The position numbers were made by a program, and so were the translations under genes. From positions 124,001 to 188,000 of the forward strand of contig JAACJK010000177.1 in the NCBI GenBank assembly GCA_013368325.1: a DNA stretch of 64,000 nucleotides, read 5' to 3'. Below, in pieces: positions 7,401-49,296 of this stretch; position 1 is the stretch's first letter, and each line of letters begins with the position of its first letter. The DNA is from Ephemerocybe angulata (Eukaryota > Basidiomycota > Agaricomycetes > Agaricales > Psathyrellaceae). Under the pieces are notes generated by a model. It ran no database searches. It saw only the letters and a program-made list of their open reading frames with translations, and was not told the DNA's origin.

Positions 7401-7653
7401 GTTCGTTCACTATCTGTACATCCTTACATCGCAACTGAAGATCTCTTAGCACACTGTCCAGCAATCATCGTCATCTTTCTTCCGGATATCTTCTCGCAGA
7501 AATCGAGATTCGTGGAGTTGCAGCAGTGTGATACCACAAGCCATAACACAGTGTTCAGATGCTGCGTTCCTGCCCTACCCCTAGGTTATAACAAGTTTGA
7601 AATGGACTCTGTATATTCCTACATCCAATCCATCATTGCATCGCCCCCTTAGT

Positions 7654-13847: not shown

Positions 13848-13953
13848 TACTGACCTACGCGATACGACGGGCTTGGGCGGGTTCTTGTATGTGGTCGGGG
13901 GACCTCACGATACAAGGCGGGAGAGTGGTATGCGGTCTAGGGACCCACGATAC
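13784..13953. repeat. Four palindromic units at the inversion breakpoint
   Basis: Four imperfect palindromes of about 27-31 nt follow each other at 13784-13813, 13835-13864, 13887-13912 and 13927-13953. The common design is GTATGCGGTC, a short spacer, then GACCTNCGCGATAC. Units two to four differ by small substitutions. The last unit ends in CGATACC, which is also where the right arm of the large inverted repeat begins (13948). The units thus sit exactly at the rearrangement junction. The normal pol sequence at this point contains only a single GATACC. Confidence 0.85.
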
Positions 13954-24215: not shown

Positions 24216-26430
24216 GATGCGGTAGCTTAACTGGGGTTTTTGGATTGACTAGTTCGATGAAGAGAACCTCCAATGACTGACGACCAGGATGACCTGGTAT
24301 TTCACGTGATGTCCAACCTTTGACCGTGGCTTCCTGCCCCTTCGTAATCGACAGCTCAGTTGCATCGTTATACCTAATCATGACAGGCATGCCAACGCAA
24401 AGAGCGAGACACGCGGGTATATGATCGCTCGTAACCGGCGGTGAGTCCCAGAGAGCAGCTTGGACCTCTGGGGTCAACCTTATCGGGCGTTCTGGTGGGC
24501 CCTTCGCGGATTTTTTCTTTTTCACACTGCCGTTTCGTGGCTGAGACTGCTTATCAACAGAGTAAAAGTGGTGAAGGGTCCTTCCATGCTCTTGGGCGAA
24601 GCGGGCCGAGTTCATGGCATTGATGCTGTCCTTGTGGGTATTCCACGATGTGATAATTGAGGCGTATCTCAATCGCGGGTCGTTGATGTCTATGGTATCG
24701 TTAAAGCTGGGTATGCGGGTACAGAGGAACTGAATGTCCTCATTGGTACACTCTTTGTACCTCATCCGAATGAGAGCAGCTCTAAGAGCCCTGTCTTCCG
24801 CAGATATATTCATCTGTCGCATGTTCTGCTTCAAGACCATGACCGTCACGAAGTGATGCCAGACAAGAAGACCAAGGGTATTTTCTTGGCTTTCAGGGGA
24901 CGCTCGTGGAAGCTGTATTTGAGAAACCTCAGAGCTATACAGCGCGTTCCCTTTAGCAGGTGGGAGTTGCGCAAAATCCCCAGCTAGAATGACGTTCACC
25001 CCTCCGAAAGGTTCATCCTCGACCCTTGTGATGTCTTTCAGTCGTGCATCAATTAGGTATAGATCTTGGCATGATATCATTGAAACTTCGTCTATGAAAA
25101 TATACTCTACGCCCCTCATACGGCCTCGAGCCAGATCAAGCGCCCGGCCCCCTCGCTTGCGTGATTTGCGGCGGTCTCCCGTGTTGATGCCAAGAAATGA
25201 GTGGTAGGTGGACCCAGTGAGTTGTGAGGCAGCAGCCCCAGTAGGTGCTAATACGACGAACCTGTATTTCTCCCCCCGTGCTTCAAACCAAGACCGCAGA
25301 GCGCTGATAACCCGTGTCTTACCTGTGCCCCCCATCCCGGCGATATACATACGCAAAGGATCCGGCGTGACTGAAACGGAGTGGTTGGCCACTATTCTGA
25401 ATGCCCTTTCCTGCTCTTCGTTTAGTGTCCATTCGCTTAAAACACTGGCCATGACCTCGTACACGTCTGTATCCTTTACCTCAAATTTCGCAAGTAGATA
25501 AGCGCCCGGAATGACGCGCGCATCATTTTTTGTTGGGGCTGATCCCTTTGAGCGCTTCTCATCACAAGCATTGAGCGCCGCCTTTCTCGAATCAAGTATT
25601 CGATTTTTCTCCCCTGCCACGATCTTCTTCCAATGAGTAGGTGGGAGTAATTGCTCTGGCGCAAACTCCTGAGAGACATCCATTTCTGTGCCAAATACCC
25701 CTGCAGTCCACCCGGCGCTTTGCATCACGAGCTGAGCATCCTGCATTTGCGCACGCTTCCTCTTCGACCACACTCCCATCGACTCCGGATTGTTGGCGTC
25801 AAACACCAGATCGTCACCGTCGTACTGATCGCCAGGATCAAGATCCTCTTCACACTCTGCGTCTTCTTCGGTCGCATCCGCAATGGTTTCATTATTTTTC
25901 TGAGCTGCCACCCTGAGTTTGAGCTGAGAAAAGTAGTCATCGCGTGCATCATAGCACTCGTATCTGATGTACATATTGTGAATAATGGTCGAGTGATGCT
26001 CGGAAAATTGGTATGCGTCGAACGCATCACACCACGTCTCTGAAGACCGCTTCAAGTCCAAGCCACTCCGCCACGGCGAGAAGAGCGTCAACATGACACA
26101 GCAGTAGTAGTCCCTGTCCTCTGAGTCCTTCCTTGGCAAATATGGCCCGATGAAGTTGGGTACGATACCGTCCTTCCTTGAAATATCAAACACTACACCA
26201 TGCGAGGCATGAAGCGGATGAGCTTCATCATACAGGTAGTACGGAGACCTCCCTTTCTTTAAAACAGACAAGTCCTTCCGAACACTACACTGAACGTAAT
26301 CGTATAGGCACACTGACGACAATGCGGCCGGTCTCATTTTGTAATCGTCCACGTTTGAACGGCTAACAAAATTCCCGTTGTTGCGGGAAATCGTGACGTC
26401 GTCCTCTTCGTCGCCCGATTCGCCATCGTC
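24208..26430 (-). pseudogene. Helitron PIF1-like helicase, main part
   Basis: The frame continues the Rep protein and carries an SF1B helicase. It has Walker A GMGGTGKT, APTGAAASQL, Walker B FIDEVSM and the GDFAQLPPA motif, all as in PIF1/RRM3-type helicases. In Helitrons this unit unwinds the strand displaced during rolling-circle transfer. The region just upstream (about 26352-26430) is acidic and open in this frame without an ATG, which fits a continuation and not a separate gene. The frame ends with TAA at 24208, and the remaining helicase motifs follow in the -1 frame. Confidence 0.8.
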
Positions 26431-28076
26431 TCAGCAGTACGGACGTTGAATGAGGACTGCGATGGCGCACTTTCATTCCTCTCCCTGTCATCGAACCTTT
26501 CCGCTGCCATCTCCCACTCCTTCAAAACATCCATGGCATAGGGTCTCCAGTAAAAGGGGAGGAATGAATGGCTTGAGTATCGGTCAGGGTGCCCGAGAAG
26601 GTAGAGGGCTGCCATGGGCCCTCCAATTTCAATCTTCGAGGTGAGTGAATTAGCCATTTTCAACACAAGCCTTCTCGCGGCGTCCGCATCTGACTTGCTT
26701 TCCTCCCAGATATCGGTGTTCTTTCCAAAGACATCATATATCGACGAAAATATTTGGTAAGTCTTTAAACCCATCTTCACAACGTAGTCTACAATGTATC
26801 CAGCTGACTCCTTTATGGCAGTACCTGAGCACAGCGGCGTGGTATCAGTATTGCAGCCCATGCAGTAGGCGGTAGTCGGAGTGATCGTGTTTATCCTGGC
26901 CTCCATCTTCTTAAGGTGAAGTGTACCCTTCTCATCTACGTAGCTTATCTCGATAATCGGCCTTGGAAATCTAGCAGTGCAAACTCCATCCTTATTTATA
27001 CATCCTTTCCTGCTGATGTGGTGAGTGTGTACTCCATTCACCACCACATTCCTCCGAAGGAAGCAGGTATGTACATTCGAGCCGTACACAACGCTGTCAA
27101 CACGATCGTTGTACTGATCTAGCCAAGCTCGCAAGGATGAACACTCTTGGCAATCGCATGAACTCATTCCGAGAGCAGGGCAAGTACATTTGGGTGGTGG
27201 GATGGGTAAGCACTGTGTGGGGTCCACTGATTTAACAGGTGCATTGGGGCCATGCTTCTCGACCATGTCCGCCATAGTACCAGTAGAAAACTCCCCTACC
27301 TGGCAGCTTTCCAAGTACGCTATCAAGTCACGAACAAAGGCTGAGTCCCCTGACATTAATCTGTCCTTGATGTCCTGCGGTCTCCAAGCGCCCGCAACCC
27401 ATACGAGCATGTGTAAGTGTAAGGTCATTCTTCCTTGCTGTTCTACAGTGCCAAAGTAAGCCGCTGTGTTACCATATATTCCAGGCTTACCATCCCCCTG
27501 CTTCCAGCGCAGGACGTGCTTGATGAAGAGATCAACCAGATACTTGAAGAATCGAGCGCCAGCGACAGGATTCCTAGCTACAAGCCGAGCCCTGTCATTA
27601 TACTCCCGCAAGTCTGGTGAGAAGGTAATCACCTTATCCGCCCAGTATATACATAGCGGATGTTTGTTATCCACCAGCGATATGGTGATAAACCATAAAA
27701 GTGCACCGCGGTAGTTGATTAGAGACCACACCTCGCTGCGCATATTTTTTTTGGAGGCAAGCGAGCCGTGAATGCTACCACCTACGTGGTTTACCTGGTC
27801 CATGACGTCAAAGCACGCTTTCTCCTCATCGGTGCTGGGCTTGAACTGCTCTCCGTCCTGGAGCTTCCCAGCGATGATCTTGAGCGTGTCGGGATTGATG
27901 CCCTTCATCTTTCTTGCGACGTCAAGGAAGTTACCTCTCTTCGCCGTTATACGGCTGCCTGTTGACCCTGCTTTGAGCTGATCATGATTGAAAGCTACGA
28001 TGATAAACTGGGTATCCGTTTGGAACCGTTTATCATGGTACATTAGTAGCCACCGTTTCTGGACCGTCTCCCCCAT
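26334..28076 (-). pseudogene. Helitron Rep, HUH endonuclease part
   Basis: This frame carries the Helitron_like_N region. It shows WLLMYHDKRFQ near residue 9, the metal-binding HLH of the HUH motif at residues 220-222 (GRMTLHLHMLVW), a cysteine-rich insert (CTCP, CDCQEC) and the two catalytic tyrosines Y427 and Y431 (GYIVDYVVK, spacing Y-x3-Y) followed by Lys. In the family these residues nick DNA and form the covalent intermediate. All appear intact. The frame runs into a stop at 26334, while the continuation is in the -1 frame from about 26430. The start at 28076 is the first ATG, not a natural N-terminus. Confidence 0.8.
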
Positions 28077-28352
28077 CCAGGTCGTAACATCACCCCCCTT
28101 TTAGCTTCATTGTCCTCGATGATTTCAGCCTCTCTCCCCCAATCTTACCCCAGAACCAACAACTACAAAACACAAACACACAATGAAGAAAGCGAAGGAG
28201 GTGGATACAGCAACGTTCCTCCCGCACGTGCAGAGTCCGTGGAAGGTCGGCGCGCACGTCTCTGCCGCCGGGGGCGTCGAGAACGCCGTCGAGAACACTG
28301 CGGCCATCGGGTTCGTCTCTCCCCACCCCTTCTCTCTTGCGATTGCTTTCCC

Positions 28353-30864: not shown

Positions 30865-32071
30865 TGATACGACCGTGGACTATTTTCGCGGTTTTATGGT
30901 CGTATGTGTAAGGTCGTAGCACCGACTCGAGCACTAAGCACTACACTGCTTACATTGGCCTCCAAGATCAGAACCTGGGTTGAGACAAAAGGGAGCACTT
31001 CAGACGCCGCTTGAGTAGGGGACACTGGTGATCACTAGTAAGACGGATTAGTACTGAAACCGCCTCAGGGTGACTGAGCGGTTTGACAAGTCGTGTACGA
31101 AAGGTCTTAGAGTCCTGGTGCGAGCGAAACACTTAGGGCGCCAGCAACAACAACCCCTCCTCGCCACCCAAGGGTACCACACCTGGCGAGTCGGATAGCG
31201 AGTCAGGCCATCTGAATTCTCAAACGAAGGATCCCCGCTCAATCGAGCAAGGAAAGGCAAGGTGGCGCAGGGATACCAGGCAGCAGGAGCAACGGCACTC
31301 GCGGCACTCGGAGTTTTCCGACCGCGTCGGCAAAACCCGAAACTCGGCATGGGCGGCTTCAGACTTAGACGTTTCACGCGAGGCGGTCTCGTCAGCCCCA
31401 GGCTGTCTGACCACACACGGAAAAAGGATAACAGGAATAACAGGGGTGAGTCCCTCGAAATGCAAGGGAGCTCCACAACGGAGAGTCCAAGCACAAGAGG
31501 GATAAGCCCGCGTCACTATAAAAGGAAAACTGGGTCATCAATAACGGAGCGGCATCCTCGGCATGCTGCACCGCGTCCAACTTAGCGCGAAACCGCGCAA
31601 CAACCGACTCAAGCCTCGCAACCTCAAGACTCAGCACCCTAGAAAATTGAAGGAAAATCGTAGGCGGCGTGACTGTGACCAAGGGGGTCACACTATAAAA
31701 GTAAAACCGCGTAGCACTTAGTTTCTTCAGCTTGTATACTTCAGATTTAATCTCTCTCTCTCAATCGTACTTTGTGTCTCTTTCATTACGCCACGTCGGC
31801 TTTTGAGGATTCGTGAAACGGAAACTGGAACGCTTTGCTTACTGAGTCGAGACATACTACTTCCTCAGTCCGCTTAGTTAAATAGACTTGCCTACGCCTC
31901 TCACGAGCGTAGTCTCTTCTTGGAGTTGGTTTTGTGTGGTGTGTAACTGTCGAGAATTGTACCCTCCGGCCACGCCGCTCTCTTCCAACGAACTCAGCCT
32001 TTGTGTTTGTGTGGTTGGTTTGGTTGCAAACGATTGTCATCGTTTGTGTCTTTTCTCCGCACATCGCATCA
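30865..32071 (+). repeat. 5' LTR, 1,207 bp
   Basis: Starts TGATACG and ends ATCGCATCA. It is nearly identical to 44139-45347. Two TATAAAAG boxes lie 177 bp apart at 31517 and 31694; the second is followed by a TC-rich stretch. No coding frame here is credible; long frames on the reverse strand are chance. Confidence 0.92.
31694..31701 (+). promoter_or_regulatory. TATA box of the 5' LTR (a second lies at 31517-31524)
   Basis: TATAAAAG follows GGTCACAC, about 30 nt before a likely transcription start near the TTCAGCTTGTATAC region. A second TATAAAAG at 31517 follows CGTCAC. Both are preserved in the 3' LTR (44791 and 44968). Which one is used cannot be read from sequence. Confidence 0.55.
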
Positions 32072-32073
32072 AA

Positions 32074-32092
32074 TTGGAGCCCACCGCGAGGG
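32074..32092 (+). other. Primer binding site
   Basis: Three bases after the 5' LTR end stands TTGGAGCCCACCGCGAGGG; the TGG at 32075 is the expected complement of a tRNA CCA end. I do not assign the tRNA. Confidence 0.6.
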
Positions 32093-32429
32093 AGGTGAAG
32101 AATCGGTTTCACACCTCCTCTCCAACAAAGTAGAACAGGAAAAGGGGTTGCTTTGAGCAAAAGCAACAAAAATCAACACGCCTACTTCAAGCGGGTCGCA
32201 ACCCGTAGCTACTAGGCAAACTAGGAACTCTCAGTCAGCTGGTGCAGTCGACGTTAGACAGTATCCCAGCACGAGAAAAGTAAAGGCAGCAAAGAGTCGA
32301 AGAGCAGATACTCCAGACTCGACAGAACAGGAAACTTTCGAAGAGGCTCTTGAACAATTTGGGAGCCCGCTTACCGAATTATCTTCAGAATCGGAAATAG
32401 AATCGGAACTCTTATTACCAAAGAGAAAA

Positions 32430-33863
32430 ATGGGTGATTCAGACAGTAGCAACTCGGGCAATGCCAGGAGTAGGAAGGATAAGATGCCTAGTCTCTTCTC
32501 CACTAACCGGCCTACTTATGATCCCGCTTCACCCGCAAGCGCGATCAAGTTCTTGAACGGCGTAGAAGTGGCAGCCAAGGCGGCTGGGATCTTAGACAAG
32601 GACCAGGAAGTGGTAGAGCAGGCGTTGGCCTACCTAGACTTGGATATTGCTAGAAAATGGGCACAGCTGACAGGAGGACAAGCTCCCTTTAGCTGGGCAA
32701 ACTGGAGAAAGGCCGTGGAAAGTACCCTACCCAAGACTGTGCGCTATAAAGGAGGATCCATAGAACGGCTTGAAAAGCTCTGTGCTGCGCTAATCGTCCG
32801 TCCCATTGGAAAAGACGAGCGGCCTGGCTATTACGACTTTATGTTGGGGTTCAAAGCAGAGGCAAAGCCGCTCATCGAAGAGGTGCCGCCGCTGGTTTCG
32901 AACCGTGACTTGGTCAAGCGGTTCTTGGAATGTCTGAAGCCCAGCTTCCGGGAAGTGCTAAGGGAAAGGTTGGAGACCAAAGGGGTTGCCAATGGTCGCA
33001 CCTTGGAAGATCCTTGGGGAATCATAGAAGTCATGGAACATGCCACTAAACTGGTTGACGCAGCGGCAGACGGACCATTTGGACTTCTCGCCGAGGAAGA
33101 GTCACAAGCTACATATAAGAGGTCGAGCCCTGGCGGCAAGATGTCAGTAGCTCGTGAAGCTGAAGTCAAGCAGGAAGACTTCTCTTCTCACTTCCAGGAT
33201 GTCTTCGCAGGCATGGATACTTTCAAAACGGAAATCCAGAAATTAAGCGCTAAGTTAAGCACCCTAGAAACAGGAGCGGCTCGCCAGACCTACGTCCAAG
33301 CCCAGAAGCCGCCGTATGCACCTTCAGGAGGGGCGAGCGGCGCGATGAAACCAGGCATGTATCCAAAGCCGCCTGGAGCTAACTTCTCGTGCTTCTACTG
33401 CAGGGTGGCAGGACATGGCATTGGCGAGTGTGCAGAAATGGAAAAGGATAGAGCGGCCGGGAAGTTCACTCAACAGATTCCGAGGGGTCCTATCTACGTG
33501 AATAATACCCTTGTGCGCTCTCGTCACCCAGACGGGTCTACTATGAAGCAAAGAGTGGATCAGGCTTGGGCAGGAGGCGCCTCGGTCAATTATCAGGAAG
33601 AACATACCCCTTATTACGACGCCTATGGACAGGAGTGGGACGACGAGTTGGTGACACACGAAGTCTTCCACCAGACCATCGCAGGCATGACCAACCAGAT
33701 CTTGTCTGCGATGGGAAAGGAGACTCCGGCCCCAGCTGCGCCGCCTCCTCCTGAGCCAACAGCTCGTGATGTTCTCTTAGCGGTCCAGGATCTGGGCAAG
33801 CGGGTTGGTGCCATTGAGCAATACGCGATTAACACGCGCGCCAACCAGGAACGGGATTTTTGA
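32430..33863 (+). CDS. gag of the 14.5-kb element
   Basis: A 477-residue protein starting MGDSDSSNSG. The first two thirds are helical and charged, as in capsid proteins. A proline- and glycine-rich linker follows, then one zinc knuckle of classical form, C-x2-C-x4-H-x4-C (CFYCRVAGHGIGEC, near residue 327). The C-terminal third is acidic and proline-rich. The frame is open upstream to about 32156 but has no earlier ATG. The stop TGA at 33861-33863 follows a run of five T, and the next frame overlaps it by -1. Confidence 0.85.
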   Translation: MGDSDSSNSGNARSRKDKMPSLFSTNRPTYDPASPASAIKFLNGVEVAAKAAGILDKDQEVVEQALAYLDLDIARKWAQLTGGQAPFSWANWRKAVESTLPKTVRYKGGSIERLEKLCAALIVRPIGKDERPGYYDFMLGFKAEAKPLIEEVPPLVSNRDLVKRFLECLKPSFREVLRERLETKGVANGRTLEDPWGIIEVMEHATKLVDAAADGPFGLLAEEESQATYKRSSPGGKMSVAREAEVKQEDFSSHFQDVFAGMDTFKTEIQKLSAKLSTLETGAARQTYVQAQKPPYAPSGGASGAMKPGMYPKPPGANFSCFYCRVAGHGIGECAEMEKDRAAGKFTQQIPRGPIYVNNTLVRSRHPDGSTMKQRVDQAWAGGASVNYQEEHTPYYDAYGQEWDDELVTHEVFHQTIAGMTNQILSAMGKETPAPAAPPPPEPTARDVLLAVQDLGKRVGAIEQYAINTRANQERDF

Positions 33864-35155
33864 AGAGCTCGAGGAAGGGACACCCGAATCCTCCTCGAGC
33901 GAGTGGAAGTAAGCCCCGGGCAGCTTCAGTAGAAACAGAAACGGAGAGCGAAGATGAAGAAGAGGAAGAGGTAGTCAGAAAAATAGGAAAGCCCAAAAAC
34001 AATACAAAACAGAGGCTGGAACCACACGGCTTGGAAATCATCTCGCCGCCTAGGCCGAAGATGTTCCCGTATGTCGATGTTCCCCCTCTACGGTCGCAGC
34101 CTGTACCAGCGGAAAGGAGGGAGGAAGCGCCTGGCGCGCGACCTGATCCCAAACCGCCTAGACAGGTAGAAAAAGGCACACAGCCCAAGTGGACTAGCAA
34201 TATAGACAAAGCAAGGGTTGTGGAGGTGATCAGCGAGGTCTTTAAAATGACTTACCCTGTAACCATCCAGGACCTCTTGTCTTTGTCTCCAGCTGCCCGC
34301 ACGGCGGCGCAAGAAATCATGAAGAAAAGGAGACCGGCTGGAGCAAAGTCAGAATCCGAACGAGACGCCGCGAGAAGACTTCAAGCGGCGTTATCAGAAG
34401 AGCTGATGGAGATCAACTTGAACTTGGGCTTGACGGAGGAAGAGGCTGAAAAGGAATTGCTAGGTATATTCCTAGGGGAGACCGGTTCGGAAAACAGTAC
34501 GGAGGCTACGCCAATGGTGGAAACTTTTGTGCAGTTGGGACCTGAGGATTTACCTCTCGGAGAGGCGTATCAAGCAGACGGCGTGGAACGCATACCCGAT
34601 GGGTCCCTCATTATCCCCGACCCGGTTGAAATCTTCCTGCAGACCGACGACCCCGCTCGGCAGAGGGGCAAGCCCCTGATTACCGCTTCAGAATCATTAC
34701 CCATTCGCGCTTTCTTTCCCCGCATCAACAACGCGAAACATGAAGAGGCCATCTTTGATGAGGGCTCTCAAGTGTGTTCGTGCAGTGAGGAGTCAGCATT
34801 GAAGTTGGGCATTGGCTGGGATCCGGACTTCGTGATTGGACTTCAGTCCTCTAACAAGACCACGGCCTCCTCTTTAGGATTGGCTAGGAACGTGCCCATA
34901 GATGGTGGAAACGGCGTGGTAGCATATGTACAGCTTCATGTTGTACGCAACACTGCATACCGCTTCTTGCTGGGAAGGCCGTTCTTGGCAGTCATGAGAG
35001 CAGTATCGGCCTGCCACACAGACGGTAGCCATACCATCACGCTGACTGACCTGAACAACGAGCGCAGAATCACTATCCCTTCCTACCCTAGAGGGAAGAT
35101 TCCTGCGCAGTTCGAGGCTGAAGCGGGAGAGCATTTTCGGCTCTCGAGGATTTGA
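33860..35155 (+). CDS. Protease-like protein of the 14.5-kb element
   Basis: The frame overlaps the gag stop in -1 position, so it would be made by -1 frameshifting in the TTTTT run, or gag and protease were once one frame. The N-terminal half is basic then acidic (EDEEEEEVV) and low in structure. The second half contains EAIFDEGSQVCSCS, where a retropepsin would have D-S/T-G, followed by a beta-rich region and RFLLGRPFL, corresponding to the usual LG.P/LGRPWL strand after retroelement proteases. So it is probably the aspartic protease with a D-E-G variant. It ends TGA at 35153-35155, and pol overlaps again in the -1 frame. Confidence 0.7.
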   Translation: MKSSRKGHPNPPRASGSKPRAASVETETESEDEEEEEVVRKIGKPKNNTKQRLEPHGLEIISPPRPKMFPYVDVPPLRSQPVPAERREEAPGARPDPKPPRQVEKGTQPKWTSNIDKARVVEVISEVFKMTYPVTIQDLLSLSPAARTAAQEIMKKRRPAGAKSESERDAARRLQAALSEELMEINLNLGLTEEEAEKELLGIFLGETGSENSTEATPMVETFVQLGPEDLPLGEAYQADGVERIPDGSLIIPDPVEIFLQTDDPARQRGKPLITASESLPIRAFFPRINNAKHEEAIFDEGSQVCSCSEESALKLGIGWDPDFVIGLQSSNKTTASSLGLARNVPIDGGNGVVAYVQLHVVRNTAYRFLLGRPFLAVMRAVSACHTDGSHTITLTDLNNERRITIPSYPRGKIPAQFEAEAGEHFRLSRI

Positions 35156-38100
35156 TCGATGATCAAGGAGAGGTCGCACTGTTGGTGGAAATGGACGAGA
35201 GCAGCTTCGCGCGCTCCTCAGGCCTCGCAGTGCCGGGTCAGAAAGAGGGCTTCACAGAAAATGAGTTGAAAACCATATATCTACAACAGGCATTAATGGA
35301 AACGGATGATCAAAAGGCAAGAGACCTGTTCGAACAATACCTCCAGACGGGCGCTAAAACAAGCGCCGAGTCACAACCTTCGGGTAATCCGAACAAAGCA
35401 GGCGGGGTGAAAGGAGTTTCCAAAGGAACCAAGTACAAACCGGTTGACAAGAAAGTGAGGCCGGTATATGGAATAGTTCCGGAGGAGTTCCAAGTGGTGC
35501 GCGAAATTAAGGGAGATCCCTTGGCAGGGATGCCCGAATTGCCTACGCACCCGCCTGAGTTCACACCCAAGGGGCGGTACACGCAAGAAAGGATGGAGAT
35601 GTTTGATAAAGCCCATCCAGGGTTCTGGACGGATGAAGAAAGGAAGCTGGCGCATCATCTAATGGCCGAACAAAACGAGGCTTTTGCATGGGAAGAGTCT
35701 GAGCGGGGTAAGTTCCGAGAGGACTTCTTCCCTCCAGTAAAGATCCCTACTGTCCCGCACGAACCCTGGGTCCTGAAGAACATCCCCATCCCTCCTTTCC
35801 TGTTCTCACAAATCTGCGACATCATCAAGAGCAAAATAGATTCTGGGCTGTATGAACCCTTGTCATCCTCATATAGGAGCCGTTGGTTCTGCGTTCTCAA
35901 GAAGGATGGAAAAAGTCTACGCCTCGTACATTCTTTGGAGCCGCTTAACGCTGTAACCATTGCACACTCAGGCCTCTCACCTCTCACCGAGGAATTGGCG
36001 GCCCGGTTCGCAGGGTATGCATGCGGCACCACCATGGACTTGTACGTAGGATATGACGAGCGGATTCTGGATGAGCGGTATAGGGACCTGACCACTTTCC
36101 AAACACCGTTTGGAGCCATGCGGCTTGTAACGCTACCTATGGGCTGGACTACCTCTGTACCCATCTTCCACGAAGATGTAACTACTATCCTTCAACCTGA
36201 GATCCCGGAGTGGACTGAGCCGTTTGTAGATGATGTTCCAGTAAGGGGACCGAAGACGCGGTAAGAACTGCCAGGAGGCGGCTTCGAGACTATCCCCGAG
36301 AACCCTGAGATTCGAAGGTTCGTTTGGGAGCATTTAACAGTGGTCAATAGGATTATACAAAGGATGAAGTATTGCGGGGGTACATTCTCTGGAAAGAAAA
36401 CGTTCCTGTGTGTGCCAGAATTCACAGTGGTGGGGCACTTGTGCTCATACGAGGGCAGGAAACCAACTGAAGACCGCGTTGGAGTAATCTCCAGATGGGG
36501 TCCTTGTCGCGACGTTTCGGACGTCAGAGCATTCCTAGGAACCGTTGGCACGTTCAGGATCTTTATTCCGGGCTATGCCACGCGGGCTAGTGCCATCCAG
36601 AAACTCACGAAAAAGGAGATAAGGTTCGAGTGGGGGCCTGAGCAGGACGCAGCAATGGAGGACTTGAAAACGGCAGTAAGCGAGGCGCCAGTATTAAAAC
36701 CACTGGATGTCACCTCTGGGATGCCAGTCAAGCTCTCAGTAGACACCTCGTACATTGCAGTTGGATGGTACATCAGTCAGCAGGACCCAACGGACCCCAA
36801 GAAATGGCATTATGCTAAGTTCGGGTCGACCCTGCTGAAGCCGCCTGAAGCTAACTACTCTCAGCCCAAGCGAGAACTCTATGGCTTGGTGAGAGCACTC
36901 AAGGAAAATGAGTACATGCTCATCATGGCTAGGCCGCTCATCGTGGAGACGGATGCGCAATATATCCAGGGGATGCTCAAGAATCCTCAGTTGGGACCGA
37001 ATGCCACCATTAACCGATGGATCGAGCAAGTTCGGAAGTTCCAGTTCGAGTTACAACATGTGCCAGGGAAGACATTCGCAGCGGACGGTCTCTCCAGGCG
37101 GCGTGCACAGCCAGGCGACCCGCCTAGAAAGGAGTTCGAGGAAATAATGGACATAGACCCGGACGAACCTATCACATTCTCCAAACCTAACCCTGAGGAT
37201 CCTGAGCCGCTCGAGTTTGAAGACTTCAAGCACCTCATTGATACGAGGGGAGGTTATCTACAGGAGATTTGTGAAGAGGAGGCATCCGAGACTTGGGTAG
37301 AAACGGGTTTTCATAGTGACGCCGCTCAGATGGCAGCCATCAATATGTTAGAGGCAAATAGACGCGCCAGGGACCCACAAGGTCCCACAACTAGCGATAT
37401 CCTCGTAAACGTAGAGGTGCTGCCGGAACATTCAGATGAGGATTACCCTTCTGGATGGAGAACGGCGTCCGCATTGTGCATGGATGCTTGGTTACCTATA
37501 ATTCGTCTCTGGTTCCTGCAAAAAGACAGGACACGAATGCCGCGAGGCGTGGAAAAAGGGGAAGGGGATAAGTTCAAGCGGGCAGCGCAACACTTCTTCT
37601 TGGGGAAGGACGGTCGACTCTTCAGGAAAGAAAATGGGTACGGTATGCATCAGTTGGTCGTGGGTTCAGAAAAACGCATGTATATGCTTAAAGCGGCCCA
37701 CGATGCTATGGGACACCGCGGGACCTTCGCTACCAAGGGATTACTATTGAAGCGGGTATGGTGGCCGGAGCTGGATCGGGACGTTGAAAACTACGTTAAA
37801 ACGTGCCTGCTCTGTCAACAGCGCCAGAAGCTCTTAGTTAAAATCCCTACAATTGTGACTGAAACCCCGTCGGTGTTCCAGACAGTGCACATCGATGTCA
37901 TGCACATGAGCCCGGCCAGCAACGGCTGTGGGTACATTGTGCATGGAAGAGACCATTTGACATCTTGGATGGAAGGGAGGCCGCTCCGGAAGGAAAATGC
38001 GGCGGCTGTAGGCGCCTGGCTTTTCGAAGACATTATCTGTCGATGGGGTTGCCTGAGGGAAATTGTCACTGACAACGGGAAGCCCATGATTGCGGCAGTG

Positions 38101-38916
38101 GAATGGCTCGAGAAGAAGTATGGGATTAAGAAAATCGCTATCTCAGGGTACAACTCGAGGGCAAACGGGAAGATCGAGCGGCCTCATTGGGACGTCCGCC
38201 AGAGCCTGTACAAAGCCACGGGGGGTGACGCGAGTAAGTGGTATTGGTTCTTCCACCATGTTATGTGGGCGGACCGTATTACTATCCGAAAACGCCTGGG
38301 ATGCTCACCTTTCTTTCTCCTGACCGGCGCGGAACCTGTCACGCCGCTTGACGTCCAGGAAGCCACTTGGCTGACTGAGCCGCCTACGGGAATGATGTCT
38401 ACGGAGGACTTGATAGCCTCCCGGGCCAGAGCCCTGGCAAAGCATCAGACTCACGTCAGTACGGTCATGACCAGGATCAGCAAGGAGAAACGGCGTCGTG
38501 TCGCCGCCTACGCGGAAGCTAACAGGGCTACTATCAAGAACTGGAATTTCAAACGGGGTGACTTGGTGCTGATGCGTAACACGAACATTGAGTCGAGCCT
38601 GAATAAGAAGATGAAGCCGCGTTATCTGGGTCCCATGGTTGTGGTATCACGAAACCTGGGCGGCGCGTATATCTTGGCGGAACTCAATGGAGCGGTGCAT
38701 CAGAGCAAGGTTGGCGCTTTTAGGGTGGTTCCTTACTACCCCAGGAAGGCTATACCTCTGGGAAAGGACTTCATGGAAAACATAGATATTGATAATAATA
38801 CACTGGAAGAAATGGAACTATCTTTGGATGATGGGGAGCAAGAGGAACACAGGGATTTTAATTTTATGGGAATGGGGAAACTACAAACCTCGGATGAAAA
38901 TGCGGAGGAAGATTAG
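35152..38916 (+). pseudogene. pol (RT, RNase H, integrase) with an in-frame TAA
   Basis: A single frame carries RT with LVHSLEPLN, MDLYVGYDE, VTLPMGWTTS and the catalytic FVDD. TAA at 36262-36264 interrupts it directly after PKTR, where the reading continues ELPGGGFETIPE in the same frame; a tyrosine codon would restore the usual pattern. RNase H (VKLSVDTS, ELYG, ETDAQY, AADGLSR), an HHCC finger (H-x3-H, C-x2-C) and the integrase core with D in HIDVMH, D in TDNGKP and E in KIERPH follow. There is no chromodomain; the tail is acidic. The stop TAG at 38914-38916 overlaps the stop of the antisense gene. The TAA inactivates RT unless read through. Confidence 0.85.
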
Positions 38917-40513
38917 GCTGATGCCTCGTCACTTTCTTCGGCAGGGGAGCTGCCATCCTCGTACACTGACACCGACACTGACCCTTCGGGTTCGTCAACG
39001 GACATCGCCTCTTCGTCTTCGGACGTGGGGATTGATACCACCTCATCTGCTTCGTGCAGGGCGGGCTCGGATGGTTCAGCAACGGTGCGAGCGTGGGTCT
39101 CACTGGAGGAGGCAGGTACACCGACCACGGCGCCGCGTGCGGGTGTGGCGGGCTGTACCTTCTTCGACGGGGACCGAGCGGTCTTGGGGATGGGGTCGCG
39201 GCGCGTCCATGCGCCCGGCTTCGACGTCTCTTCCTTCGTCTCCGCGGTCTTGTTGCTCCGCGTGGTTCAGGTGACCTCCTGCTTGGAGGTCTCCTGAACT
39301 TCCCCCTTCTTGACCTCCTTCTGTTGCTCCTTCTTCTCCGTCACCTCTTTCTCGGTCTTGGTACCTTTCTGGACCTCCTTCTTCTTCTCCTCCTTCCCAC
39401 GACGTTTCTTCTCCTTCGCTGAAATCTCCCCGCTCGCGACCGCCTTCCCCTGCTTCTTCGTCTCCTTCTTCGCTTCGACTGCAGGACCTGGCGCGGCCTT
39501 CGCCTCGCGCTGCTCTTGCTGCATCTGCTGAGCAGTGGCGGCGATGGCGGCGTTCATGGCTGCGGCTTCGTTCGCCTCGCGGGCGGCTTGGAGCGTCTGT
39601 TGGCGCGTCTGAGTATCCTCCCACGAGCGTCGAAGTAAGGCGTGGATGCCGAGTAGCTGCTCGATCTCGAACAGCGTCACGTTCATACGTGCGGAGAGTA
39701 AAGCGGAGGCTTGGTGGAGTTCCTCCTCATCCAAGGACACGGAGGGCATCGACGCGGTCACTTTCCCTGCTTCCGCTAGGATCGTGCGAGTATGCGCGGT
39801 GTCGCGCGGCGCTGGGACCGACTCTGGTCATAACAGCGTCGTCAGCGTATACCTGCGTGAGGCGGTACATGGAGAAGTGCGTACGGGGTGGAGCAGGGCG
39901 AGTTGTGGGTGCTGCACGGTTTCCAGCGGCCCACTCGCTCAACTAGGGAGTAATGAGTCAGTTTGGGGGAGGGCGCTTAACCGGCAATCAAATAGGCGCT
40001 CACCGTGCGCTTCTGGGTTGGGCGGCCTGCGTTGCTTGGCCCAAAGTCAGGGAGCGGCCCGAGGTCTGTCATGGTGGAATCAAAGTCGGTCTGACCGGAC
40101 TGAGCAGCGCGGCTTCGCTCACGCAGCAGCTGGATGCGATCCTTGAAGGAACGAGGGAAGTGATTCTCCATGCCGGCCTGCTGACTGGCTGTGTTGAACT
40201 CTGTTAGGAAGTTGTTCACCTTGGTAAGGAACTTCCCAACGTAGGATTCGCGCAGTGTAGCGGCCTCGGACTCGATCCATGCCACCTACAGGGTCGGGTC
40301 AGTCGAGCTGTGTGGAAGTAGCGGGGCGAGACGTACGGCCTCCTCCAGGCCTGCCATCATGCGCGTAGCGTACTCTCTCAGCGCCGGGTCATCGCGCGCC
40401 TCAAAGGCTTGCTGCCGCTTCGAGTATTCTGTTGTCGACGACAGGGCATCATACCCTTTGGTGATAACGGACGTGCTGGGGCACCCGGCGGGTGTACTAC
40501 TGGAATTGGCCAT
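38913..40513 (-). CDS. Antisense spliced gene 2: lysine-rich charged protein
   Basis: Exons 40513-40337, 40285-40004, 39942-39885 and 39775 onward are joined by introns of 51, 61 and 109 nt (GTACGT...TGTAG, GTGAGC...CCTAG, GTACGC...CCTAG); all phases fit. The first 341 residues are helical with a Gln/Ala-rich segment (AAREANEAAAMNAA) and then a strongly charged KK/EK region. A TGA at 39267-39269 stops this frame, but the same frame stays open for another 117 codons of acidic, serine-rich sequence ending TAA at 38913-38915. I think the TGA is a recent mutation. TATAAAA lies at 40558-40564. No function is recognised; the charge pattern suggests a nuclear or nucleic-acid-linked protein. Confidence 0.7.
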
Positions 40514-41033
40514 GTTATCTGAGGCGGTTTGACAGGGCCAGGCGGCGTGGCTTTCCGTTTTATACGGAATGTGAGACCCCGCCTGCCCCAAATCGTGAAT
40601 GTTCCATGGGTTTCTCGAGCGGGGTGTGTCTCGGGGTGAGACGCTGACCGGGGACGATCAGTCTAAGTTTGGGGGAAGGGGACCCGGGTTTGAATTCTCC
40701 TGGAGCTCAACCCGATCAATATTCCCAATACAACTCCAACTCAAAAGGATACAGGTCGTCACTAACCTGGCGATTGACTCAGATCCGGAGACACTTTACC
40801 AAGTCAGACTCGGAGGCTCACATAAGGTCACACAACTGAGATTGGAGCAAGATAGGTGGAAATTGGGTAACAAACAGGACAAGACAATGGAACTACAAGA
40901 ATAGGACTACAAGATAAGGGTACAAGGATGATAGGATACAAATAAAAGGGAATAACGGAACACAAAGTCCAAAACAGACATACAAGGGGCATGAGACGAG
41001 GCCGACTACGAAGTAAGGAGTTAGTTTGGGGGA
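39960..41033 (+). repeat. Polypurine-tract-like motif, internal copies
   Basis: AGTTTGGGGGA occurs at 39960-39970, 40666-40676 and 41023-41033, and again as the true tract before the 3' LTR at 44126-44136. Each copy is preceded by T, C or A after a short non-conserved spacer. The first lies inside an intron of antisense gene 2, the others between the two antisense genes. Confidence 0.8.
40558..40564 (-). promoter_or_regulatory. TATA box of antisense gene 2
   Basis: TATAAAA on the reverse strand, 45-51 nt before the ATG at 40513. It is flanked by CCG and CGG. It suggests that the antisense gene has its own promoter. Confidence 0.7.
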
Positions 41034-41126
41034 CGTGTAACGAGAAAAAGAGTAGAACTCACTGAAGAAAGGGAACGAGATAAGGAGAGGCGGCGTACAA
41101 CGAACAACTACAAACCGACGCCTCCT

Positions 41127-43443
41127 CTATCTAACAACCTCGCGCTCCCCGGACTCGCCGTTCTCACTCTCGACCTCGGTATCGCCCTCCTCGTCGGCAC
41201 TGGCAGGAGCGGCCTCCTCCTCCTCTTCCTCCTTCTCTTCGTCGTCTGACGACAGGTCTCCCCCGATGTAGATCTTCTCGACGACCGACTCTCGTACCTT
41301 CTCCTTCCCCTTGCCCTTACCCTTGGCCGCCTGCTTCTCGCGCTTCTCCCGTCGTGCCGCCTGATGGTTGAGCGTGATCCTCGCGCTTCGAGGATTGAAT
41401 TGACGAGGTGCAGGTGGGGCGGGAGGCAAGTCGTGCTCGAGCACGTCTTGGGAAGGCGAGGCGGTTCCAACACGAGCGCGGGCATCGAGGGTGATGGACT
41501 CGTCCGTGACCCTGGTCAGAAGGGCGTTCTGGGTGCAAGGGTGGAACTCCACCTGGGTAAGCGGGTCGGCTTCGGCGAACACGATAATCTCAGTCAACGC
41601 ATCGAGATCCACCGCGTCGCCTACCAACTGGCGCAAGTGGTTGTGCCAGGAGCTATTGATGTTGCGTCGGAACCTGTTGGACAGGTCCTTCGCGTATGCC
41701 AGAGCCCGCTCCTCAGCGTCCTCATACAGAGCGTAGAGGACTCGAGCGGACCCCAGCTCCTGCATGATCAGGCGGGCCAGGGTTTGGACTCCTAGAAAAA
41801 TGGTTAGAAATTAATAAGAAAGGAGGAAATAAATTAGACTTACGACGCGGCGCGAGCTCGTCTATCAGGGAAAGGGACCCATCTCGTACGGGACGGGGCG
41901 CCGTAAACTGGAACCCACAACAAGCGGCCTTGGTAGCAGCACACTGGTCACAAGGAGTACCTCCCAAGAGGTCTCCGCCTGTGCAGTCGATACCTCGACC
42001 CGCGCAGGTAGCACAGGCGAAGCGATGCTATCAACATAACAGGGAGTAAGAAAAAGAATGGGATAGAAAAACGGAATAGCTTACGCGAGACTCGGGGTTC
42101 TGAACCGCCGGCTTGGTGAGGGTCTTGAAGAACGGGGCGGCGTCAGTCAAGGGACCTTCCCGATACATCTTCGTAGCCCCGTCCTCCCTGATCGTCGCCG
42201 GGTTCTTGTCGGTCAGGTTCCTCTCGGCACCATATGCCCAGTGCCCGTTTGGCAGCTCGTTCCCATTCTGATCCACGAGCCTCTTCTTGAAGTTGTTGGG
42301 GTAAGGAAGGAGGATGTCGGGCGGGGTGATACCAGCTGGGTGGAATTTGTCGTCAGGACGGAACAAGTACATGGCGCGTTTGCGCATCCCCTCGTGCGGC
42401 GTCACCCCTACCGTCTTGACCGGCGTCTCTGGCACCTCGCCCGAGGGGCCCGCTCCAGCACGACCCTTACCCTTCTCACGCTTCTTCCCCTCCTTCGAAT
42501 CGTCGGTCTTGCGCTTCTTGGGCGGCGGAGGCAAGTCGGAAGGGATGGAGATGGCTTGCTGAGGAGACGAGCCCGCTGTAGACAAGCGCAGCTCCCGAGC
42601 ACGCTTGATGGGGGTGACTGGCGACGTGAGGATATTGGAGGGCCCTGCTACAGGTCCACTCTCCCCGGTGGGAGGACGAACCCGACTTGGCACCTCAATG
42701 AACGGTCGAAGCCTGGACACAGCAGCGGCGTCGGCCACTAACGAGTCGTACGCGGCGTCACGCAGAGGAATCCAGGCGGGGTCGTCATAGAGGAAGGGCG
42801 GTCGAGAAGAGAATCCAGGTGGTGGAGATGGTGGTGCAAGGTCGCCATCAGCAAAGTCATGAGGGGGACCGAAAGACAACAGACTTTTGTTTGAGGAACT
42901 ATCGGTCTCTTCAAGCTTGAAAGGAAAAATGAGGTCTGAGACCTGTGAAACCCCATAAGTCAGATCGAAAATCGGAAAAAGGAGAAACAACAGGAACTTA
43001 CGGAGGGGCTCCGATTGGCGCCGGCGAGGACTGGTGGAGCGGGGTCAGGACCTGGGAACCCGAGGAAGCTCACTTGTGGCCTGGGATTGGCTTCGAGCCA
43101 CCAGAACAAGTGTAGGGCCAGGCGGTCCGAGTACGACGCCCCATCGAGTGCTAGCCAGAGGCGAGAGACGTGCTGACGGAAACATTCGAAGATGGGGTCC
43201 TCCCCGAGATCGAAGTCCGCAGCGGCTACAGCCTAAAGCATGGAGCAGCGTCAGCGGGGATCTGTAAATAGAGGAAAACGGACTTACCATCTCATGAACC
43301 ATGCTCTCAAGGTGGTGCTTCATGATGCCGCGCTTGCGATTGGTCTTACCAGGTGGAATGCCGCCGCCTCCGGTGCAGCAGTAAGGTTGGATGGCGCGAG
43401 AGGCAGAGTAGATAGTAGGGAAGCGGGTTGCGAGAGAATCCAT
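41127..43443 (-). CDS. Antisense spliced gene 1: Zn2Cys6-like protein, 697 aa
   Basis: Five exons, 43443-43288, 43232-43002, 42942-42085, 42027-41844 and 41791-41127, are joined by introns of 55, 59, 57 and 52 nt, each GTAAG...AG, with matching phases. The protein has a basic N-terminus, a proline-rich disordered stretch, a nuclear-localisation-like KKRK near residue 271 and GKGKEK near the end. At residues 420-451 lies C-x2-C-x6-C-x10-C-x2-C-x6-C (CATC, GIDC, CDQC, KAAC). This spacing is exactly that of the fungal Zn2Cys6 binuclear cluster (C-x2-C-x6-C-x5-12-C-x2-C-x6-8-C), a DNA-binding domain. The C-terminus is acidic. TATAAAA lies 40-46 nt upstream. It is probably a nuclear regulator; whether it acts on the element or on the host is unknown. 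Confidence 0.8.
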
Positions 43444-43482
43444 GTTGAGAAAACTGGACTTGAACGCATGAGTTGAAACGGC

Positions 43483-43489
43483 TTTTATA
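43483..43489 (-). promoter_or_regulatory. TATA box of antisense gene 1
   Basis: TATAAAA on the reverse strand in GCTATAAAAGCCG, 40-46 nt before the ATG at 43443. The same spacing is seen in antisense gene 2. Confidence 0.7.
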
Positions 43490-43518
43490 GCCTTCGCCCC
43501 TCCTCTACAAAGCTTCAT

Positions 43519-44125
43519 CGCGATGGGATCGTAATAAGCAGCTCAAAAGGAAGAGGAACTAGGAAACATACCTATGGCAAGAAAGAAGCGGCCTGTATGT
43601 CTAGCCGGAACTTGGAAAGAAGCGCGCTAAACGGCGAGTTCGACCCTCGTTCGAAACGGCGACATTAGAACCGACGCTGCGTAGGAACCAGCATGGAAAA
43701 GGAAGAACCTCTCATGTCAGAGCCAACTCTGACATGGAACGGTGTATGTTTCGAGCCACGAACTGGGTAAGAAGAGCGCTAAGAGGGAAGGGTTCGACGA
43801 GAGTTCGAAGCAAGGCGCTTAAACCGCCTCGAACTAGGAAAGAAGCCGGGGACGTGTTTAAACACCGGACCCGCTTCTTTCCGAGCCACGCCGGCCAAAT
43901 TAGCAGGGAAACAGAAGTTGGGCTTGAGCGGTTCTGGCAGAATCACTCGCGCCGGCTAAATGGGACTTGCGAAATTAGGAAAGAAGCAGAAGGCTAAGCG
44001 CCCGAGCGAAACAAGCGCGCGTCGGTAGCCGAGGAAGCGGGAGCAGTTGCTCGGCCGCCGCGCCAAATCAGGCTGGAAATGGAAACCGCGTGCGCTGCAC
44101 ATCTGACTGGGGACAGTCGAGACCT
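43519..44125. other. Segment between antisense promoter and 3' LTR
   Basis: No gene is supported. GAAC.AGGAAAGAAGC-like blocks recur (near 43610, 43830 and 43970), with GTTCGA/TCGAAC pairs between them. A perfect hairpin with 10-bp stem CATGTCAGAG and loop CCAA stands at 43713-43736. The segment may carry control sites of the antisense genes or packaging signals. Confidence 0.5.
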
Positions 44126-44138
44126 AGTTTGGGGGAGA
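44126..44138 (+). other. Polypurine tract
   Basis: AGTTTGGGGGAGA directly precedes the TG of the 3' LTR at 44139, the position from which plus-strand synthesis is primed in LTR elements. Confidence 0.75.
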
Positions 44139-45347
44139 TGATACGACCGTGGACTATTTTCGCGGTTTTACGGTCGTATGTGTAAGGTCGTAGCACCGAC
44201 TCGAGCACTAAGCACTACACTGCTTACATTGGCCTCCAAGATCAGATCCTGGGTTGAGACAAAAGGGAGCACTTCAGACGCCGCTTGAGTAGGGGACACT
44301 GGTGATCACTAGTAAGACGGATTAGTACTGAAACCGCCTCAGGGTGACTGAGCGGTTTGACAAGTCGTGTACGAAAGGTCTTAGAGTCCTGGTGCGAGCG
44401 AAACACTTAGGGCGCCAGCAACAACAACCCCTCCTCGCCACCCAAGGGTACCACACCTGGCGAGTCGGATAGCGAGTCAGGCCGTCTGAATTCTCAAACG
44501 AAGGATCCCCGCTCAATCGAGCAAGGAAAGGCAAGGCGGCGCAGGGATACCAGGCAGCAGGAGCAACGGCACTCGCGGCACTCGGAGTTTTCCGACCGCG
44601 TCGGCAAAACCCGAAACTCGGCATGGGCGGCTTCAGACTTAGACGTTTCACGCGAGGCGGTCTCGTCAGCCCCAGGCTGTCCGACCACACACGGAAAAAG
44701 GATAACAGGAATAACAGGGGTGAGTCCCTCGAAATGCAAGGGAGCTCCACAACGGAGAGTCCAAGCACGAGAGGGATAAGCCCGCGTCACTATAAAAGGA
44801 AAACTGGGTCATCAATAACGGAGCGGCATCCTCGGCATGCTGCGCCGCGTCCAACTTAGCGCGAAACCGCGCAACAACCGACTCAAGCCTCGCAACCTCA
44901 AGACTCAGCACCCTAGAAAATTGAAGGAAAATCGTAGGCGGCGTGACTGTGACCAAGGGGGTCACACTATAAAAGTAAAACCGCGTAGCACTTAGTTTCT
45001 TCAGCTTGTATACTTCAGATTTAATCTCTCTCTCTCTCAATCGTACTTTGTGTCTCTTTCATTACGCCGCGTCGGCTTTTGAGGATTCGTGAAACGGAAA
45101 CTGGAACGCTTTGCTTACTGAGTCGAGACATACTACTTCCTCAGTCCGCTTAGTTAAATAGACTTGCCTATGCCTCTCACGAGCGTAGTCTCTTCTTGGA
45201 GTTGGTTTTGTGTGGTGTGTAACCGTCGAGAATTGTACCCTCCGGCCACGCCGCTCTCTTCCAACGAACTCAGCCTTTGTGTTTGTGTGGTTGGTTTGGT
45301 TGCAAACGATTGTCATCGTTTGTGTCTTTTCTCCGCGCATCGCATCA
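44139..45347 (+). repeat. 3' LTR, 1,209 bp
   Basis: Matches the 5' LTR; it is 2 bp longer because of one extra TC in a TC run. It is followed by ACGC, the target duplication. Confidence 0.92.
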
Positions 45348-45706
45348 ACGCACAGGAGTCAGGATGCTGGGTATGGGTTGATTCACCCGCTGCCTCTACG
45401 CCATCATCCTCGTTACCAACTTAACATCTGTAGTTCGAAACAAGTGCAAATGCGGCTTGGGGGCACTTCCGTACATTTGTGAAGGTGTGCCTCAGATGGG
45501 GTCAGCGGGGGTTGATGTATTCCTGCACGCTTCAGTGCCCTTCGCTCGAGTCAGTTTGTGGCGGCGATCGAGAAGGCGGGGGACTCGGAATGGTTCGTTC
45601 AATGTGGTTATGGCGTCTTGTTCGTGTTCGCTCGTAGCGTCTGTCAACCATCCTCGTTACATGCCAAGTGGAAGTGGTGCTCTCCACGTCTATTCGCCCT
45701 TGTCGT

Positions 45707-48910: not shown

Positions 48911-48912
48911 TA

Positions 48913-49294
48913 GGGGAATTCAAAGTAAACGCAACAGCTGTTTCGAAACAACGATTTCGTTTCAATTCCTAATCTCCGGGGAAATCCGAGAAATCACCAG
49001 GTCCCATCAAATCTAGAGATTATGCCGCTTGCTCGCCGAACATACCTGAAAGGCGTTTTAAGAGTATATACCATTCTTCTAGGCCTAAAATTTCGTATTG
49101 CAGCTCCTGTAGTGTTATATTAGCTATATCCTGCCCTCTCGTAGCTCACAAGCTTGTGTGCATGCTTAATGGTTATCTTCGTCTTATCTCGGAGCGTCGG
49201 AGTTGAACACGGCTGAGCCACACAGCCCCCCTTGGCGAAAACCAAAACGAAATCGTTGTTTCGAAACAGCTGTTGCGTTTACTTTGAATTCCCC
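48913..49294. mobile_element. MITE, 382 bp, perfect 50-bp TIRs
   Basis: The first 50 bp (48913-48962, starting GGGGAATTCAAAG) are the exact reverse complement of the last 50 bp (49245-49294). TA flanks both ends (48911-48912 and 49295-49296), as for Tc1/mariner-type elements, which duplicate TA. The inside has no coding frame, so it is non-autonomous. Identical long TIRs suggest recent movement. Confidence 0.9.
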
Positions 49295-49296
49295 TA

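Follow-up and report, generated by a model that had tools for sequence, protein, structure and literature searches.

Two intron-bearing antisense genes, one with a six-cysteine cluster, between pol and the 3′ long terminal repeat of a Ty3-type element of Ephemerocybe angulata

The DNA analysed here, referred to as the window, is a stretch of 64,000 nucleotides from Ephemerocybe angulata (GenBank assembly GCA_013368325.1, contig JAACJK010000177.1, positions 124,001 to 188,000 of the forward strand). It contains a Ty3-type long terminal repeat (LTR) element of 14.5 kb, which spans window positions 30865-45348. The region of this element from the end of pol (38916) to the 3′ LTR (44139) is occupied by two genes on the opposite strand, gene 1 and gene 2. 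Both are intron-bearing coding genes under purifying selection among the copies of the element. At the same place, a related Ty3 family has a gene that matches gene 1 in exon layout and in the kind of cysteine cluster.

Gene models and selection among copies

Gene 1 is located on the minus strand and consists of five exons that encode a product of 697 amino acids. Its introns of 55, 59, 57 and 52 nt all have GT...AG borders and are in phases 0, 0, 0 and 1, respectively. Gene 2, also on the minus strand, has four exons separated by introns of 51, 61 and 61 nt; all seven introns of the two genes are thus of the GT...AG type and 51-61 nt long. The features of the two genes, in the direction of their reading, are as follows.

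43483..43489, minus strand: TATAAAA upstream of gene 1, 46 nt before the ATG
43288..43443, minus strand: gene 1 exon 1
43002..43232, minus strand: gene 1 exon 2
42085..42942, minus strand: gene 1 exon 3, with KKRK at residue 271
41844..42027, minus strand: gene 1 exon 4, with the six-cysteine cluster
41920..42015, minus strand: six-cysteine cluster C-x2-C-x6-C-x10-C-x2-C-x6-C, gene 1 residues 420-451, with a counterpart in family C (see below)
41127..41791, minus strand: gene 1 exon 5, which starts with VQTL and has an acidic tail at its end
40558..40564, minus strand: TATAAAA upstream of gene 2, 51 nt before the ATG
40337..40513, minus strand: gene 2 exon 1
40004..40285, minus strand: gene 2 exon 2
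39885..39942, minus strand: gene 2 exon 3, where several models are open
38913..39823, minus strand: gene 2 exon 4, with an in-frame stop at 39267-39269 in the window copy

An earlier note on this DNA, made from the letters alone, had described two antisense genes with five and four exons and seven GT...AG introns, TATAAAA boxes before both ATGs, and the cysteine spacing at residues 420-451 together with a KKRK motif in gene 1. Its coordinates and counts are correct, and the boxes and motifs were found at the positions listed above. The structure it gave for gene 2 stands as well, but the stop at codon 358 of this gene and a stop in the pol frame at 36262-36264 had been missed.

The exon model of gene 2 used here is one among 11 open models, and its three introns have GT...AG borders in 11 of 11 copies of the element. 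The stop at codon 358 (39267-39269) is a property of the window copy; it is absent in nine other copies with gene 2 in frame. The TATAAAA motif of gene 2 is kept in 11 of 11 copies, and that of gene 1 is exact in five of the nine copies holding the site. The four junctions of gene 1 are joined as predicted in a separately annotated Ephemerocybe angulata protein, P0001, the model of which differs elsewhere; 634 of 654 residues agree between P0001 and the best of the six open gene 1 copies. The predicted structure of P0001 has a mean predicted local distance difference test (pLDDT) score of 33.7, too low to be informative about a zinc fold. The six-cysteine spacing did not arise once when gene 1 was shuffled 100,000 times, and among the 502 six-frame open reading frames (ORFs) of at least 60 codons in the window no other one has it.

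The element was compared with its own genome of 58.7 Mb, and the window copy and ten others (L017-L026), together designated family A, were taken into the comparison. Small pieces of gene 1 at C28:566566 and C47:963029 were left out, as was L029, which adjoins LTRs 73% like those of the window and has other inserts. The earlier note had proposed a search for the same antisense pair in other LTR copies, and all 11 family A copies carry genes 1 and 2, entire or partial. Six of the 11 (window, L017, L018, L020, L022 and L024) have an open gene 1, from its ATG to its stop; the gene is broken or cut in L019, L021, L023, L025 and L026. L017 and L018 are near-identical neighbours, and in L022 gene 1 is open but the donor of intron 4 is not GT. 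In eight of the 11 copies (L017, L018, L019, L022, L023, L024, L025 and L026) the frame of gene 2 runs open as far as its terminal stop; it is not open in the window (early stop), L021 (frameshift) and L020 (terminal stop lost). Copies that hold the antisense region retain the introns, and introns 1-4 of gene 1 have GT...AG borders in 9, 10, 11 and 10 of the 11 copies, respectively.

At G000:C152 1009158-1040801, three family A LTRs with two near-identical internal regions between them (L017 and L018) form a tandem array sharing LTRs. The family A copy at L019 (G000:C47) 6871-9401 has a partly inverted pol.

Selection was assessed from the ratio of nonsynonymous to synonymous substitution (dN/dS). 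Pooled over pairs that are not independent, it was 0.24 for gene 1 (15 pairs, 6 sequences), 0.13 for gene 2 (28 pairs, 8 sequences, up to position 39275) and 0.08 for pol (28 pairs, 8 sequences). L018, a near copy of L017, was excluded everywhere and the broken L021 was kept; L023 was likewise excluded from all three sets, L026 from those of genes 1 and 2, L019 from those of gene 1 and pol, and L025 only from that of gene 1. Polymorphic columns at antisense codon positions 1/2/3 numbered 49/43/114 in gene 1 and 19/15/74 in gene 2 (8 sequences), and 39/27/34 in the intergenic stretch read in an arbitrary phase, with L018, L019, L025 and gene 2 exon 3 excluded. Inclusion of L019 and L025 gave 113/108/193, a count that is blurred because these two copies have unrelated sequence in gene 1 exons 1-2. 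Indels were scored against the window, with L018 excluded and L019 and L025 excluded above 42800. Six of the 12 exon events are multiples of three (3-18 bases), and the other six disrupt the frame of that gene in L020, L021, L023, L025 or L026. None of the ten intron events is a multiple of three; nine are single-base and one is of 4 bases. Among the copies, four of the six cysteine codons of the cluster vary silently, as TGT or TGC. The cysteines, the conservation of which the earlier note had made a test of its reading, are lost only in L021 (two positions), a copy that also bears a stop, and they are conserved in a second family as well. These results bear out that the genes belong to the element: they are antisense, built with introns, under selection at the protein level, and they recur in other copies.

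A possible host donor gene was sought in the same genome at E 0.01; only element copies or fragments and one degenerate relative were found. This relative of gene 1, at L028 1760-3220 (G000:C218), has a tail 49-53% identical, and a fragment of gene 2 comes after it, so that the order of the two is the same. In the protein database only two Ephemerocybe angulata proteins match gene 1 and none matches gene 2, in a search that needed shared exact words, scored about 8,000 candidates and may miss distant relatives.

Related Ty3 families

Related elements were identified by a search with pol, in which 57 of 424 candidates were scored; the family counts are therefore lower bounds. Family B has at least 8 copies, with pol 64-67% identical to that of the window, and family C at least 24 near-full copies, with pol 58-59% identical. 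More distant families are present too. In a further family, D, such a gene is absent from the part read of one copy (L035), the LTR of which was not located.

Family C has a gene with a counterpart of the gene 1 cluster. In its copy at C149 (L036) the gap of about 5 kb contains two antisense genes, and the one nearer the LTR has the pattern C-x2-C-x8-C-x10-C-x2-C-x6-C. In two copies examined in detail, L036 and the one at C121, the cluster lies on its own exon of 205 nt, with a phase-0 intron before it and a phase-1 intron after it; the acceptor lies four codons before the first cysteine, which is residue 5 of the exon, as in gene 1. Gene 1 of the window agrees with these copies in both phases and in the offset (HRFAC and PPPPC). 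The exon after the cluster has QTL near its start in gene 1 and L036, and QML in C121. All six cysteines are present in seven of the seven family C copies read (L031, L036, L041-L045). C13 is the most divergent of them, with 54% identity over the cluster exon; its spacing is kept and its loops differ. In the five closer copies, 14/24, 16/24, 15/24, 3/3 and 3/5 of the cluster-exon differences to L036 fall at third positions, and in C13 36/77 do. The family C cluster gene was found downstream of family C pol, on the opposite strand, at 26 of 26 loci (E 1e-9 or better). Its distance from pol is within 2.4-2.7 kb at 22 of these loci and 9-22 kb at the remaining 4; at C121 the distance is long because a family B element is nested there. 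For C147, one of the 24 family C pol copies, there was no cluster gene among the gene search matches. The family C gene 2 has a TATA motif.

The nested element at G000:C121 213254-232408 is a family B element of about 19 kb inside a family C element. Its LTRs of 1,666 bp are 100% identical, so it is a very recent insertion.

The start of the LTR in family B was placed by its polypurine tract and a TGATACG motif, and in the C121 copy also by the identical LTR pair. The gap between pol and LTR is 1.9-2.1 kb long and contains the antisense exons of one gene (seven of the eight copies read); in 7/7 a TATA motif precedes the ATG by 66-86 nt. An automatic splice search gave no gene model in any of these seven copies, and the exons there were read by eye, as single pieces. 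A wide six-cysteine pattern, which finds the cluster in family A and family C controls, was found in none of the seven family B gaps.

Several of the results weigh against the view, set out below, of genes 1 and 2 as accessory genes of the element. The seven family B copies are without the cluster, and gene 1 is therefore not essential to all these elements. The acceptor of C13 is six codons ahead of the first cysteine instead of four, and a clear TATA box is lacking in the family C cluster gene, which has TATAGCC at -81. The comparison of gene 1 profiles between families A and C, cluster included, was not significant (1%), and gene 2 profiles gave no significant match between families either, so that its homology is positional only; these comparisons among A, B and C were made mostly with single sequences. 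Since the profile comparison was not significant, the case for homology between gene 1 and the cluster gene of family C is made by the spacing of the cysteines, by the positions and phases of the introns, and by order and strand.

The element and its polypurine repeats

The remaining features of the element in the window are listed below.

30865..32072, plus strand: 5′ LTR, which starts with TGATACG and has 98.9% identity to 44139-45348
32430..33863, plus strand: gag-like ORF (ORF call), with a counterpart 33% identical within the family B element at C121
33833..36264 (33833-35155 and 35122-36264), plus strand: pro and reverse transcriptase (RT) reading frames (ORF call)
36265..38916, plus strand: pol, with Pfam RT_RNaseH_2, RT_RNaseH and Integrase_H2C2 (RNase H, then the integrase zinc-binding domain)
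39960..39970, plus strand: internal AGTTTGGGGGA copy in gene 2 intron 2
40666..40676, plus strand: internal AGTTTGGGGGA copy between genes 1 and 2
41023..41033, plus strand: internal AGTTTGGGGGA copy between genes 1 and 2; the 30-base block that includes it is identical among copies
44126..44136, plus strand: polypurine tract AGTTTGGGGGA directly before the 3′ LTR
44139..45348, plus strand: 3′ LTR, with 98.9% identity to the 5′ LTR

The LTR pair (11 mismatches and 2 gap columns) encloses the gag, pro and pol frames. The pair, together with the order of RNase H followed by the integrase zinc domain, places the element in the Ty3 (Gypsy) group. ACGC at both flanks is a possible 4-bp target duplication. 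Neither the gag-like ORF nor the pro/RT frames at 33833-36264 have a Pfam match, RT and gag being unmatched in the split frames. The stop at 36262-36264 interrupts the pol frame in the window copy and is absent from nine other copies covering the site (of 10). Because of this stop and the one in gene 2 (39267-39269), the window copy may be dead; gene 1 is nonetheless open.

The polypurine repeats, designated TCCCCCAAACT repeats, comprise four exact copies of AGTTTGGGGGA, all on the plus strand. The three internal ones lie in noncoding gaps. The number of internal copies expected is 0.0025, and the core TTTGGGGGA is kept at these three places in 10, 10 and 11 of the 11 copies. The conservation of the 30-base block at the 41023 copy departs only modestly from chance (P 0.04). 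The sequences at 39942 and 41005 are 86% alike over a block of 29 nt. In family B the 3′ LTR starts 416-616 bases past the antisense ATG, and the 41023 copy in the window lies 510 bases past the gene 2 ATG. The similarity of these distances suggests that the internal copies may be old 3′ ends left within the element. An internal 12-base match to the element's own polypurine tract is also present in the C149 family C copy (L036 275); the C121 copy has one extra G in the same place and lacks the exact 12-mer.

Outside the element, the window contains Ty3 pieces 99.6-99.8% identical in inverted and direct arrangement, with a chromodomain (Pfam), at 7960-17394. Helitron-type ORFs with Helitron_like_N and PIF1 helicase domains lie on the minus strand at 24211-28100, and a perfect inverted repeat of 52 bp is found at 48911-48962 and 49245-49296.

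Possible functions and comparison with known systems

The consensus of the fungal Zn2Cys6 domain is C-x2-C-x6-C-x5-12-C-x2-C-x6-8-C, with x6 as the rule in the first loop, and in its known members the loop between cysteines 2 and 3 carries basic residues that contact DNA. The spacing in family A agrees with this consensus, and the first loop in family C is x8. The loop between cysteines 2 and 3 contains one arginine in each family (AGRGID in gene 1, IARGALPE in family C). Pfam Zn_clus was not reported for the whole gene 1 protein at E 1, and the cut-out regions, at 10 bits for gene 1 and 11.2 bits for family C, did not reach the cut-off of 21; at least 19 stretches of the same genome score above it. 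In a search of solved structures the two best matches of gene 1 were PUT3 (E 0.063 and 0.073), with an alignment covering all six cysteines. A pairwise profile comparison with PUT3 gave a probability of 93% when the window sequence was used and of 86% with the form found in the other copies. The PUT3 score of the window was reached by none of 120 cysteine-fixed shuffles, a result biased upward, as PUT3 was picked after the structure search. The comparison of the gene 1 cluster with GAL4 gave 1%, and the family C cluster gave 10% with PUT3, 7% with GAL4 and no match in one further search. Because the scores lie under the Pfam cut-off, PUT3 was chosen afterwards, and the GAL4 and family C matches are low, the cluster is referred to only as Zn2Cys6-like, and its membership in Zn2Cys6 is not proven. 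The Zn2Cys6 label given by the earlier note has partial support. Gene 1 resembles fungal Zn2Cys6 factors (PF00172; PUT3) in cysteine spacing and the PUT3 alignment; it differs from them, apart from the Pfam score and the few basic residues, in the mid-protein position of the cluster. The KKRK motif, the acidic tail and the PUT3-like cluster would fit a nuclear DNA-associated protein.

We consider it fairly probable, from the sequence comparisons, that genes 1 and 2 are accessory genes of an agaric Ty3-type LTR lineage, and that they probably encode nuclear regulators. Each antisense gene would be transcribed from its own TATA promoter opposite gag-pol and then spliced. The introns would persist through transposition because the genes are antisense, so that the introns are not removed from the sense genomic RNA, which is copied with them in place. 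The product of gene 1 would enter the nucleus, where its six cysteines may fold around zinc. Together with the product of gene 2, it may act on the chromatin or transcription of the element itself, comparable to accessory regulators such as HBZ of human T-cell leukaemia virus type 1 (HTLV-1) or GENE23 of the maize element Grande. HBZ is a bZIP protein of an animal retrovirus. Candidates for the controlled steps are transcription, silencing, and the import and targeting of complementary DNA.

An explanation with a chance just short of even is that the cluster protein is a nucleic-acid chaperone, a chromatin tether or a silencing suppressor, in which the cysteines only hold the fold, rather than a sequence-specific factor. 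Zn_clus scores about half the cut-off, the single arginine in the loop of both families, the x8 loop of family C and the poor match of GAL4 to either cluster all point in this direction; the best solved-structure match, PUT3, is a true Zn2Cys6 factor, and the cysteine-fixed shuffles, with the bias stated, argue against it. It is rather improbable that the antisense transcripts, and not the proteins, are what matters, by pairing with the genomic RNA and limiting copy number via RNA interference. The two promoters would give convergent transcription, and the idea has been raised for plant antisense ORFs (PMC7264820), but selection acts on the amino acids and the reading frame of both genes. A pure antisense-RNA effect is insufficient, because RNA pairing alone leaves the amino-acid selection unexplained; such an effect may still occur alongside the proteins.

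We regard as less probable again the possibility that the two genes are captured host genes carried as passengers. Their introns are of the ordinary short fungal kind, as would suit such an origin. LTR elements are also known to capture genes (PMC7264820). Against it, no relative outside the elements was found in the same genome (E 0.01) or, within the limits of the search, in the protein database; selection continues after capture, and the cluster gene is present in two families. Chance reverse frames opposite sense-strand env-like ORFs were rejected as very improbable: sense stop-to-stop ORFs of 162-224 codons do overlap the region, but substitutions concentrate at antisense third positions, the indel pattern and the kept splice sites fit the antisense frames, and the shuffles place the cluster far from chance.

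A broader proposal, which we put forward tentatively and regard as doubtful, extends the accessory-gene explanation to an old fungal Ty3 lineage with a spliced antisense regulatory cassette. A multi-exon gene beside pol (three families) would have been joined by a zinc-cluster gene added beyond it (two families), in an outward growth at the 3′ end. The internal polypurine copies would be the seams of this growth, and on the other strand one of them would supply an antisense intron with its polypyrimidine stretch. The zinc-cluster protein would bind the element and set its own activity, as a fungal counterpart of HBZ.

The function of antisense genes in LTR retrotransposons is called unknown in a review (PMC7264820). 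With two antisense genes that have introns and measurable purifying selection, and with one cysteine cluster common to two families, the question of function is now testable. The element is also an example of an LTR element that carries intron-bearing genes without intron loss. Literature searches covering open-licence papers brought up no description of paired, spliced antisense genes in elements of basidiomycetes. A term search of the main text of a survey of fungal LTR elements did not find the word antisense (PMC3248453).

Antisense genes between pol and the 3′ LTR are described in plants and in Boty of Botrytis (PMC7264820, PMC8365987, PMC4227169). As an antisense coding gene at this site in 11 family A copies, under selection, gene 1 or gene 2 corresponds to the antisense ORFs named aORF-3R. 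The brtn gene of Boty/BcGypsy1 in Botrytis cinerea is likewise an additional antisense gene between pol and the 3′ LTR of a fungal LTR element (PMC7264820); by the review's description, which refers to Zhao et al. 2011, it differs in being one gene, in an ascomycete element. The plant aORF-3R of maize Grande (gene23), rice RIRE2, Silene Retand and bean PvRetro13 share the antisense orientation, the site between pol and the 3′ LTR and the presence in most copies (PMC7264820, PMC11963269). Grande gene23 is reported to have its own promoter and a nuclear product (PMC7264820), and Retand elements to carry antisense TRP28 genes, with TRP28 predicted to bind DNA (PMC11963269). The protein families named for the plant genes are different ones, and here there are two genes, seven introns and a six-cysteine cluster; the word "intron" is absent from the main text of PMC7264820 and PMC11963269. 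HBZ of HTLV-1 is, similarly, the nuclear product of an antisense gene of an LTR element (PMC11963269). The antisense promoter of HTLV lies in the 3′ LTR (PMC7264820), whereas the genes described here have internal TATA motifs and a cysteine cluster.

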